Shown here in pieces: positions 8,769-16,528 of a DNA stretch of 64,000 bases (the stretch's first letter is position 1; the number at the start of each line of letters is the position of its first letter). The notes under the pieces are model-generated. The model saw nothing but the letters and a program-made list of their open reading frames with translations. It had not been told where the DNA came from and made no database searches. The position numbers and the translations under genes were made by a program. Source of the DNA: Desulfobotulus mexicanus (GTDB taxonomy: Bacteria; Desulfobacterota; Desulfobacteria; Desulfobacterales; ASO4-4); NCBI RefSeq assembly GCF_006175995.1, contig NZ_VDMB01000012.1, positions 224 to 64,223 of the forward strand. The letters run 5' to 3'.

Positions 8769-8845
8769 GCGCCCGTAGCTCAGCTGGATAGAGCGTCGGA
8801 CTTCGAATCCGCAGGCCGGGGGTTCGAATCCCTCCGGGCGCGCCA
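8769..8845 (+). tRNA. tRNA-Arg (TCG)
   Basis: Acceptor GCGCCCG pairs CGGGCGC with encoded CCA; the anticodon loop CTTCGAA gives TCG, reading CGA arginine codons. The 3' 48 bases are repeated exactly at 16481-16528, showing that the tRNA is the attachment site of the adjacent integrated element and was rebuilt by it. Confidence 0.95.
8798..8845 (+). repeat. attL: tRNA-Arg copy of the 48-bp attachment repeat
   Basis: The 48 bases from the anticodon stem to the CCA end of tRNA-Arg are identical to 16481-16528. Bases outside the repeat differ on both sides, so the identity ends sharply, as expected for site-specific integration. Confidence 0.92.
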
Positions 8846-8892
8846 TAAAATCAGGTAGTTACAGGGTTTTTAAAAGAAGCCTGATTTTAAAA

Positions 8893-8909
8893 TAAGCACA
8901 TAGTAAGCA
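8893..8909. repeat. Left copy of a 17-bp repeat near attL (integrase arm-site candidate)
   Basis: TAAGCACATAGTAAGCA occurs here, 48 bases inside attL, and once more at 16347-16363 near the other end. Each copy holds two TAAGCA units 11 bases apart, about one helical turn. This is the pattern of arm-type binding sites of tyrosine integrases. Confidence 0.65.
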
Positions 8910-9404
8910 CTAGAAAAAAAAATAATCAAAAAATAATCAGGGCAAAAAAATAAGCCGGTTTTTCTTCCATGGTCACATCATCGGAAAGAAACTGGTTTTT
9001 TCGTTTGTGAATATGAACCCTCTTCTAACGTGCCTAAAAATTCCTTGGGGCTGAAGGTTTCAGGAATCATTTTTTTTCTGATTTTTTATTTTTTTGGTCT
9101 TGGCTTGGTAAGGGACTTGGTAACAAATTAAAAAACTTTTACAAGACCACCGCAAACACTGAAAAAAAGGCCCATGGTTAGGCGGATAACGTGTCTGCCG
9201 AACCCTCAAAAATGCCCCTTTCCACTCCCCTTTATGGTGTCCGAAAACTCCGGCTTTCCCGTGTGGGACTATGCAAAAACCTTAGCCGTGCTTTGATGGT
9301 TTGTTTCCCTGTGACCATGGAAAAATCTTTACCGGGTTGCCCGTTCCTGGCCCTCATTATGACCGAAGAAAAACCTTCTCTCCTTGTTTTGGGGTGCTGT
9401 TATT

Positions 9405-9666
9405 TTATGACCTTTCAGGTATGTTATGACCTTTTGGGTCATAATTGCAAGTATCTGATATGTATATATAAAACATCTGTTTTCTGCTATCTTATGACCT
9501 ATGCCCCCCCACACCCTACCCGGTACCAAAAACAGCCTAAAAAAAAGCATGTGTGTGTGTCTGGTCATAAGTCATAATATATATATATTTTATATAAAAA
9601 AACCAGTATTGGCGGGCTTCTTAAGTTATGACCTTTAGGGTCATAAAATGGTCATAAAAGTCATAA
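9405..9666. repeat. Iteron-like TTATGACC repeats: candidate replication origin of the element
   Basis: This stretch has TTATGACC or its complement GGTCATAA at 9405, 9424, 9437, 9492, 9563, 9626, 9639 and 9650, and shorter AGTCATAA copies at 9570 and 9659. Two pairs form inverted repeats with identical five-base spacing (9424-9444 and 9626-9646). The region is A+T-rich, includes runs of TA (about 9577-9595), and lies directly downstream of the primase/ATPase gene. The rest of 8846-9731 holds no convincing gene. Confidence 0.7.
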
Positions 9667-9731
9667 GATAGGGCAGGAATAAAAAAAAGCGGGAAGGATA
9701 CCCCCCCGCCTGGCTAAGTCTTTATATTTAA

Positions 9732-15078: not shown

Positions 15079-15080
15079 CT

Positions 15081-16313
15081 TTATGCGCTCCTTGCATGGT
15101 TCAGGGTAATCACGTTCCCCGCTGCATCCTGTACGCCCTGCCTCTCTACCCAGTCGGATATTTTTTGAATTTCAGGCAACAGATACCTGCAATCGCTGGT
15201 TTCTGTGTAGCTCTCAAGGGTAACGTCCCCGCTCATCCTGTGATTCAACAGTAACTTGGTCCTCCATAATTCAATTCCGCATTCTCCTGCAATCGCCCTG
15301 AATGTCCTTCTCAGGTCATGGGATGAAATTGTGGTGCCTATCATTTCAGATATTTTCTTTACCGTGTGCTTAGGCTCTGAGATATGCCCTGTGGTGGCCT
15401 TCTTTGAAAAAAACACATAGTCGTTCACTCTCGGCCTTTCTGAAAGCAGGGTGCAAATGAAGGTACTTAAGGGCAGGGTAACGGGGTGGCGGTTCTTCGG
15501 GTCAAGGATCCTCCATGACTGCCCCTGAATGTCCACATGCTCCCACTTCAAGGACAAGGCCTCTGTCCTTCTGGCTCCGGTTAAAAGCATGAACAGAACG
15601 GCATCCGCAACGGTGCGGCCTTCATCCGTGTTAAAGGGGTTTTCCCGCTCCTTCTGCAAAAAATTAAAAATCATTCCCACCTGATTGTTTGGAATCCGCC
15701 TGTTTTTGGCCTGTACGTTATGCCATAACTTTGCGTCACTAATTATACTTACGGGATTTTCTGTTAGTATGGGCCGGTCTTCTGGCCTGTATGTTGCCAT
15801 GGCATAATTGAGAAGACCACGTAACACCCTGAAGGCTTGGTTCGCTTGTGCTGGGCTGCGGTCGCTGATCTCTCTGAATCTGGAAAGGCATTTTTGCCGG
15901 GTAATCCCTGAAATGGGCTTATCCTTCCATTCTGAAAAATTGTCCCTTACATGCCGCCTTATATCGGTTTCGGTTCGTGCTTTTAATGATCGGTCTTTTA
16001 TATATGCATTCTTGACTTCTTCCAGCGTTACAGATAGGGCCTCCTTGCGTTTTTTTTCTGTAACAGGATCTTTCCCATGAACCATTTCCCGGAGTATGTC
16101 AGCGGCCCTCTCACGGGCTTGCTGAAGGGTGAACGTGCCATGCTTTCCAATGGTCACACGCCGTACTTTTCCACCCACCCGGCCCTGAACAATGTAGACT
16201 TTTGAGGAAGGGTTAACCCGGAGACCGAATCCTTTTAATTCATCATCCCATATGAAAAAGGGTTTTTCTTCCGGTAAAAGTAAGCAGTCGATAACCTTTT
16301 TTGTCAGTTTCAT
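15081..16313 (-). CDS. int: Tyrosine integrase (DUF4102/P4-type)
   Basis: A 410-residue tyrosine recombinase that would integrate and excise the element at tRNA-Arg. The N-terminal DUF4102 arm-binding domain (LTKKVIDCL, then FFIWDDELKGFGLRV) is followed by a core-binding domain and a catalytic domain with TGARRTEAL (Arg), SSHDLRRTF (His-x-x-Arg), LLNHR and ESYTE (Tyr). ATG 16313 has GAGGTG seven bases upstream, so I chose it over the longer frame. The gene lies next to attR, and a 17-bp repeat 34 bases upstream of its start may let the integrase regulate itself. Confidence 0.93.
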   Translation of the reverse strand: MKLTKKVIDCLLLPEEKPFFIWDDELKGFGLRVNPSSKVYIVQGRVGGKVRRVTIGKHGTFTLQQARERAADILREMVHGKDPVTEKKRKEALSVTLEEVKNAYIKDRSLKARTETDIRRHVRDNFSEWKDKPISGITRQKCLSRFREISDRSPAQANQAFRVLRGLLNYAMATYRPEDRPILTENPVSIISDAKLWHNVQAKNRRIPNNQVGMIFNFLQKERENPFNTDEGRTVADAVLFMLLTGARRTEALSLKWEHVDIQGQSWRILDPKNRHPVTLPLSTFICTLLSERPRVNDYVFFSKKATTGHISEPKHTVKKISEMIGTTISSHDLRRTFRAIAGECGIELWRTKLLLNHRMSGDVTLESYTETSDCRYLLPEIQKISDWVERQGVQDAAGNVITLNHARSA

Positions 16314-16346
16314 ACCGTCACCTCTGGCTTTTCGTGTTTTTAAAAG

Positions 16347-16363
16347 TAAGCACATAGTAAGCA
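16347..16363. repeat. Right copy of the 17-bp repeat (arm-site candidate)
   Basis: TAAGCACATAGTAAGCA, identical to 8893-8909. It lies between the integrase start and attR, where an arm site or an integrase autoregulatory site is expected. Confidence 0.65.
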
Positions 16364-16480
16364 GGAAGCACAAAAAACCATAAGGCATCCTAAAAGCCAG
16401 CTTAAGGATAAGGTTTTATAATGTCAACAAATATGATGTTTGATGATGTTCTGGAAGGTGTGGTAAAATGCAGTGTTTTA

Positions 16481-16528
16481 GGACTTCGAATCCGCAGGCC
16501 GGGGGTTCGAATCCCTCCGGGCGCGCCA
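16481..16528 (+). repeat. attR: second copy of the 48-bp tRNA-Arg end
   Basis: Exact copy of 8798-8845, here without the 5' part of the tRNA. It marks the right end of the element; chromosomal sequence resumes after it. Confidence 0.92.

Follow-up and report, generated by a model that had tools for sequence, protein, structure and literature searches.

The 3' end of a tRNA-Arg gene of Desulfobotulus mexicanus harbors a 7,683-bp insertion that is, in our assessment, probably a small integrated phage satellite resembling the phage-inducible chromosomal minimalist islands (PICMIs) and phage-inducible chromosomal islands (PICIs), with a protein of the family DUF5681 acting like a small terminase. 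The element lies within a 64,000-nucleotide stretch of contig NZ_VDMB01000012.1 (here called the window), part of contig 12 of a 3.83-Mb genome in 69 contigs. Its seven genes, all open and all on the minus strand, read from the integrase end as int, P215, alpA, DUF5681, P157, P242, and a DUF3987-type primase gene. The satellite interpretation is a well-supported proposal: the sequence establishes the insertion with its boundaries, genes, and repeats, and the differing context of DUF5681 in phages and in chromosomal elements, whereas excision, replication, use of a helper, and the packaging role are inferred. The original prediction for this DNA, a phage-satellite-like element, had named no packaging gene; DUF5681 is likely that gene, judging by the company that its relatives keep in phage genomes.

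The element is an insertion, as confirmed independently by junctions in congeners. The 48-bp direct repeat that had been predicted is exact. One copy lies within the tRNA-Arg(tcg) gene called by ARAGORN, the predicted target, which remains complete; the second copy, where the insertion ends, is the 3' part of that gene, and ARAGORN calls no tRNA there. The inserted length is the distance between the starts of the two copies (16481 minus 8798), and a 20-bp core of the repeat has only two sites in the 64 kb at up to three mismatches (0 in shuffles). Both congeneric genomes that were compared, G268 and G324, carry the uninterrupted junction. In G268, tRNA-Arg continues straight into the sequence found here after the second repeat (window 8001-8850 maps to positions 237-1081 of locus L067 and window 16481-16578 to positions 1029-1126). 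In G324, the same junction (window 16481-16582, positions 1282-1383 of L068) is followed by other DNA to the contig end.

The non-matching DNA of G324 (L068, G324:C44) is probably a different insertion; it includes a 96-amino-acid (aa) open reading frame (ORF) that looks integrase-like by eye and has no Pfam match, and the gene found downstream here sits on another contig there. A candidate HEC-01 defense pair (16879-18608; PADLOC E values of 3e-154 and 9e-83) lies between the second repeat and a gene at 18946. The pair is missing from the contiguous site in G268, and therefore the tRNA-Arg flank took up more than one insertion; as cargo of the element it was rejected, being outside the second repeat.

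The proposed function of DUF5681 is drawn from its genomic context in phages. In the window protein, PF18932 covers the N-terminal part and phrog_9747 the C-terminal part. Phage relatives were reached via two intermediates, a Pseudomonas relative (31 records, matched mostly over the C-terminal part) and a viral-contig relative (5 records, matched over the N-terminal part). Nine distinct phages among the 20 best of the 31 records were examined, as were three of the 5 records, giving 12 annotated phages. In all 12, the DUF5681 relative precedes the large terminase, or the position expected for it, either immediately or with one gene between. It lies directly upstream in seven (1.039.O, 5P1a, LE4, PBR31, 234P9, Lumpael, and phiAX1), with the adjacency running across the record ends in 234P9 and Lumpael. 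A single gene intervenes in the other five, of which Skarpretter, Kc259, and C130_2 have an annotated terminase. The putative terminase position is unannotated, with a portal gene next, in three of the 12: phiAX1, where it directly follows the DUF5681 relative, and sortregn and sortkaff, where it follows the intervening gene. As a possible P157 homologue, the intervening gene of Skarpretter, Kc259, and sortregn was rejected (hhalign probability of 0.2 on a scale of 0 to 100).

Viral contigs that share the N-terminal part show a similar arrangement. Of 22 such loci, many of them near-copies, 21 were inspected, and in 18 of these the contig includes a gene after DUF5681; this gene matches Terminase_3 in 13 of the 18 and Terminase_6N in 13 of the 18, and a small ORF intervenes after DUF5681 in L037 and L043. 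The phages are related in groups, and these counts are not independent events. A PHROGs scan of 39 proteins from 11 of the phages (11 DUF5681 relatives and 28 neighbors) placed eight in phrog_9747, and no family named small terminase was among the best 25 of the 34 PHROGs families matched. In Salmonella phage STGO-35-1, whose 47,483-bp genome was re-oriented to begin at the large terminase, the DUF5681 gene occupies 46,936-47,355, and its product was detected among the particle proteins (PMC8954984).

In chromosomes, the context of DUF5681 is different. An alignment scan of genome contigs confirmed 12 loci: one in Desulfobacteraceae UBA5616 (L009) with an integrase, alpA, and DUF3987; one in Desulfurivibrio sp. 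AMeS2 (L010) with an integrase, DUF3987, and a weak alpA candidate only; and ten in Pseudomonas, with an integrase-profile match in all ten, an alpA-profile match in nine, and a primase match in none. A 13-sequence DUF5681 profile then gave 20 matches in 17 of 395 genomes of the phylum. Two were already known (the window and Desulfurivibrio contig C12), five were weak (E > 6e-6) and were dropped, and 13 were analyzed. These 13 strong loci have an integrase in nine cases, alpA in ten, at least one of the two in 12, and both in seven; DUF3987 was found in four by our own profile and in one more (L113) by Pfam. The locus with neither integrase nor alpA (L116) is on a 5-kb contig; L104 is likewise on a short contig, and some alpA sequences in our profile were chosen by eye.

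Our own profiles detected no large terminase or portal in any of the 13 strong loci, and the same terminase profiles do recognize this gene in the phage loci L080, L082, and L083. Across the 12 genomes that hold the strong loci, Terminase_6N matched in five and Terminase_3 in two, never near DUF5681: in G053 the two are about 490 kb apart, and elsewhere the match lies on a different contig. Absence of a large terminase was thus assessed with few-sequence profiles (three terminase, one portal), genome-wide searches for two Pfam families, and a Pfam scan covering 56 ORFs of the 13 loci, which gave no terminase or portal among the 25 of 100 families listed and Phage_integrase in eight. Two portal-profile matches in Pseudomonas (L015 and L020; E about 1e-4, 13-14 bits) are taken as chance, being short stretches of opposite-strand ORFs that overlap or adjoin DUF5681. 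Four further loci (L050 to L053), from matches in 6 of 242 genomes of the order, stand outside this tally: L052 and L053 have an integrase and DUF3987, L050 has alpA and DUF3987, and L051 has none of these. Two of the four have a stop inside the match, three were used in building our profiles, and no terminase or portal was matched in any of them.

The two contexts are mirrored in an 18-row tree, where a single branch (support of 100/99) divides ten chromosomal-element from eight phage DUF5681 proteins. The rows were hand-chosen and the tree midpoint-rooted; LE4, phiAX1, and PBR31, which share the N-terminal part only, and seven of the 13 loci were left out. Because the phage relatives sit where small terminases sit, and because the elements lack a detected large terminase, we interpret DUF5681 as an orphan small-terminase-like protein, one that would direct the packaging machinery of a helper phage. 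A protein of this kind would be expected to bind pac/cos DNA and the large terminase. In this it resembles the small terminases of satellites, phage packaging genes retained without the motor. More tentatively, we entertain the possibility that DUF5681/phrog_9747 is an unrecognized small-terminase family and that its orphan branch marks a large, overlooked group of Desulfobacterota and Pseudomonas satellites that steer helper packaging, with the 7.7-kb element as a compact, precisely bounded example. The small-terminase reading is new, the family having had no assigned function. In the open literature searched, "DUF5681" or "PF18932" was named only in a Salmonella phage description, and no listed title dealt with satellites of Desulfobacterota.

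Several observations weigh against this reading. A direct search of 50,697 phage records with the window protein gave MT836812 as the only match, and the N- and C-terminal kinship of DUF5681 to phages rests on partly different phages. MT836812 is unannotated, and no large terminase was recognized by eye among its ORFs; this 8.7-kb, satellite-sized faecal phage record was also considered as a particle-borne relative and rejected, since it has part of DUF5681 only and a tape-measure-like gene by eye. The structure model of DUF5681 (predicted local distance difference test of 73.8, predicted template modeling score of 0.38), with N-terminal helices and a long C-terminal helix, matched no solved structure at E <= 0.001 and no terminase; a second look with VIA-align gave unrelated helices (best Z of 6.0), and the best viral-library match had an E value of 1.6e-3. 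We regard the fold evidence as neutral. The Desulfurivibrio element encodes, after its P157 paralogue, a separate 76-aa Terminase_2 stretch (L003 2558-2788). Two packaging-related proteins may therefore be present there, and the terminase subunit of that element may be one other than DUF5681. Outside the window, relatives of P157 were seen in just two elements, and the 13 strong loci have none; therefore P157 is no general partner of DUF5681. Lastly, searches of the host genome for large terminases of two families gave nothing, and no resident helper was found. A helper, if there is one, would therefore have to infect the cell from outside or use a terminase of a different type.

Other features of the related loci are recorded here as side observations. 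Several Desulfobacterota loci have a small nuclease gene just upstream of DUF5681; all three that were scanned (L106, L107, and L111) match ERCC4, and a fourth, in L104, was recognized by eye only. Desulfurivibrio sp. AMeS2 has two different DUF5681 elements (L108 on G240:C1 and L010 on G240:C12), and its genome has no Terminase_6N or Terminase_3 match. Four Pseudomonas loci (L012, L014, L017, and L020) carry DUF5681 and a 277-aa protein of no assigned family between the integrase and tRNA-Arg(cct); these loci also have a gene that looks recombinase-like by eye, and no primase was recognized in them. Restriction genes accompany some loci, including L009; among the 56 large ORFs of the 13 strong loci, ResIII matched three, N6_Mtase two, and HSDR_N two.

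The features of the element itself are collected in Table 1. The predicted order of int, alpA, DUF5681, and primase is right, with P215, P157, and P242 interspersed and the domains confirmed by Pfam and PHROGs. The description of a compact unit free of structural phage genes also stands: a Pfam scan of eight ORFs and a PHROGs scan of seven found no structural, lysis, or relaxase family, and three proteins (P215, P157, and P242) match no family in either, as had been noted (the one row that Pfam gave for P215 has an E value of 0.26, too weak to be of use). P215 has a homologue in one of the 13 strong loci (L109; pairwise E of 1e-11), likewise between int and alpA, and no match in plasmids. A P157-family protein directly follows DUF5681 in the window, Desulfurivibrio, and UBA5616 elements; P157 gave two matches in 247 genomes of the phylum, one being its own, no match in phages, and no Protein Data Bank match at E <= 0.001 in a fold search. 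The primase exceeds the curated cut-off of PF13148 (37.4 bits versus 27). It has no relative in the viral contigs and matches 166 phage records, with no more than 47% of the query covered even in the best rows.

Table 1. Features of the element and its insertion site (positions in the window)
Feature	Position	Strand	Basis or remark
tRNA-Arg(tcg)	8769..8845	+	ARAGORN; integration target, remains complete
48-bp direct repeat, copy 1 (attachment core within tRNA-Arg)	8798..8845		Exact repeat; junction uninterrupted in both congeners compared
TAAGCACATAGTAAGCA, candidate integrase arm site, left end	8893..8909	+	Putative role
Origin-like array of nine TTATGACC motifs, both strands	9357..9657 (301 bp)		Putative role
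21-bp palindrome TTATGACCTTTTGGGTCATAA	9424..9444		Palindrome search
21-bp palindrome TTATGACCTTTAGGGTCATAA	9626..9646		Palindrome search
Terminator-like hairpin just 3' of the primase gene	9687..9711	-	Weak: 16 such sites in the region versus shuffle mean of 11.4, sd 3.3
Primase/helicase-like replication protein, 841 aa	9732..12257	-	PF13148 (DUF3987) E 2.2e-9, residues 538-744 (partial); phrog_3022 DNA primase E 8.7e-28
P242	12417..13145	-	No Pfam, PHROG, or PADLOC match
P157, helical in model	13177..13650	-	TTG start overlaps DUF5681 stop; relatives after DUF5681 in Desulfurivibrio and UBA5616
DUF5681 protein, 152 aa	13647..14105	-	PF18932 E 1.4e-9 (residues 17-74); phrog_9747 E 4.1e-11 (residues 45-147); proposed packaging role as an orphan small-terminase-like protein
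AlpA/HTH_17 regulator or excisionase, 62 aa	14147..14335	-	PF12728 E 3.2e-11; phrog_66 excisionase and regulator E 4e-8
P215	14431..15078	-	2-nt gap after int stop; positional counterpart of PICMI iolg/icg
Tyrosine integrase, 435 aa	15081..16388	-	PF00589 E 8.5e-16; PF13356 (Arm-DNA-bind_3) E 2.7e-14; start at a later ATG (16314) is an alternative
TAAGCACATAGTAAGCA, candidate integrase arm site, right end	16347..16363	+	Putative role
48-bp direct repeat, copy 2	16481..16528		Exact repeat; same junction in two congeners

Noncoding repeats near the ends of the element suggest sites for integration and replication. The 17-bp sequence TAAGCACATAGTAAGCA has two copies only in the 64 kb at up to three mismatches, one near each end; this pairing, together with the Arm-DNA-bind_3 domain of the integrase, suggests that they are arm sites. 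The predicted origin-like array is real as a repeat array and lies between the primase gene and the left end of the element: nine of the window's 11 TTATGACC sites fall within it (shuffles of the whole window averaged 1.83, with a largest value of 5), as do two 21-bp palindromes where 0 were expected. The array and its palindromes are a likely candidate for an origin of replication.

Among known systems, the closest in architecture are the PICMIs of Vibrionaceae, which are recognized by an integrase (PF00589 or serine types), an AlpA protein (PF05930 or PF12728), and a primase (PF13148 or PF19263), with insertion at fis as a hallmark (PMC10803314). A virulent phage induces PICMIs and packages them as concatemers. 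The experimentally studied PICMI115 has the order int-iolg-alpA-up1-prim; int, iolg, and alpA are needed for its excision and prim for its replication, and a gene overlapping or contiguous with int (iolg/icg) is common in PICMIs, albeit not in all (PMC10803314). The D. mexicanus element likewise has, in order, int, a gene at its end (P215), AlpA, small genes, and a DUF3987-type primase, with flanking direct repeats, a similar size, and no capsid genes. DUF5681, P157, and P242 take the position of up1, between alpA and prim. However, the element is outside Vibrionaceae and carries DUF5681 and P157. It is inserted in tRNA-Arg rather than at fis, and it is therefore called PICMI-like rather than a PICMI.

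This comparison raises the alternative that the element is a PICMI of the stricter kind, packaged passively by a headful mechanism from concatemers through a DNA motif, with DUF5681, P157, and P242 as accessory genes (for regulation, interference, or defense) that are dispensable for packaging. We consider this unlikely. The gene order is identical, 7.7 kb is close to the 6.7-kb mean of Vibrionaceae PICMIs, and PICMI115 transfers without need of up1 or up2, with no terS identified in it (PMC10803314); nevertheless, the fis hallmark is absent, and the phage relatives of DUF5681 adjoin the packaging motor.

Likeness to the PICIs of Gram-negative bacteria includes int at one end, an alpA regulator, and a primase followed by an origin, here a candidate one; some PICIs encode their own terS (PMC6092414). 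PICIs lack structural and lytic genes, and none was matched here; their induction, interference, and packaging depend on a phage. Nevertheless, the element has no recognized terS, and its 7,683 bp contrast with about 15 kb, a figure stated for Gram-positive PICIs (PMC6092414). Because of this difference in size, and because its dependence on a helper is putative, we do not file it as a PICI. Pseudomonas islands of the I55 type, moved by a jumbo phage, share a tyrosine integrase with alpA, an RNA-gene target, and phage-borne transfer (proposed here) without genes for autonomous transfer (PMC12595487). They are larger and target tmRNA, the available passages mention no DUF5681, and the word "terminase" does not occur in the available text of that paper (PMC12595487).

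Related loci share parts of this architecture. The UBA5616 locus has an integrase and a DUF5681 protein that are 48% and 46% identical, respectively, to those of the window, along with alpA, DUF3987, and a P157-family protein; it differs in having a separate CHC2 zinc-finger gene, a TubC_N protein, and an adjoining type III restriction gene. The Desulfurivibrio element (L010, G240:C12) shares int, DUF3987, a DUF5681 gene overlapping a P157 relative, and a 24-bp flanking repeat near tRNA-Arg. In contrast, it spans about 25 kb between its repeats, its primase precedes DUF5681, its alpA candidate is weak (PHROG E of 0.074, no match to our profile), and it carries an extra sigma-54-type AAA ATPase, the Terminase_2 stretch, and restriction-like genes by eye. 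Tailed-phage proteins, such as those of Vibrio phage 1.039.O and Escherichia phage C130_2, have the same C-terminal domain and a short basic N-terminal part, but their genes lie alongside a large terminase gene within a complete phage genome, and the proteins fall on the other side of the supported tree branch.

The original prediction took a lack of related elements in other genomes as a ground against it; integrase/alpA elements with the same DUF5681 gene do exist elsewhere. Its suggestion of a new satellite family of this bacterial group was too strong, the architecture being PICMI/PICI-like, and also too narrow, given the integrase islands with related DUF5681 in Pseudomonas.

It is improbable that the element is an immobile remnant of a former prophage that lost its late genes. 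Integrase, primase, and a terminase-adjacent gene are all of phage type, and both the primase and DUF5681 are single copies in the host genome, where a second primase copy was sought and not found. Yet the seven open genes on one strand, the exact attachment-site copies, and the arm-like sites at both ends argue against decay, and similarly composed elements, in which no large terminase was detected, are present in other genera. Very improbable is an integrative element moved by conjugation or another non-phage route: some related loci carry restriction genes and packaging of the element by a phage is putative, but no relaxase is among the scanned proteins, and the terminase-adjacent DUF5681 is the only gene with a transfer-related context.

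For the satellite that we favor, a life cycle can be proposed. By analogy with PICMI115, an infecting phage would induce AlpA; the integrase and AlpA, probably with P215, would then excise a 7,683-bp circle through recombination of the 48-bp repeats, and the DUF3987 primase would replicate the circle from the TTATGACC array just past its own gene. The helper phage would provide the capsid, the tail, and the large terminase, and DUF5681, acting like a small terminase, would aim the packaging motor of the helper at satellite DNA, possibly with P157, whose start overlaps the DUF5681 stop, as a partner. Packaging would thus be active instead of passive.

If DUF5681 is indeed a small terminase, an uncharacterized family would gain a function, and a packaging gene could be named in phages whose small terminase is unannotated. 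Moreover, DUF5681 without a large terminase would then serve as a simple marker for candidate satellites in Desulfobacterota and Pseudomonas.

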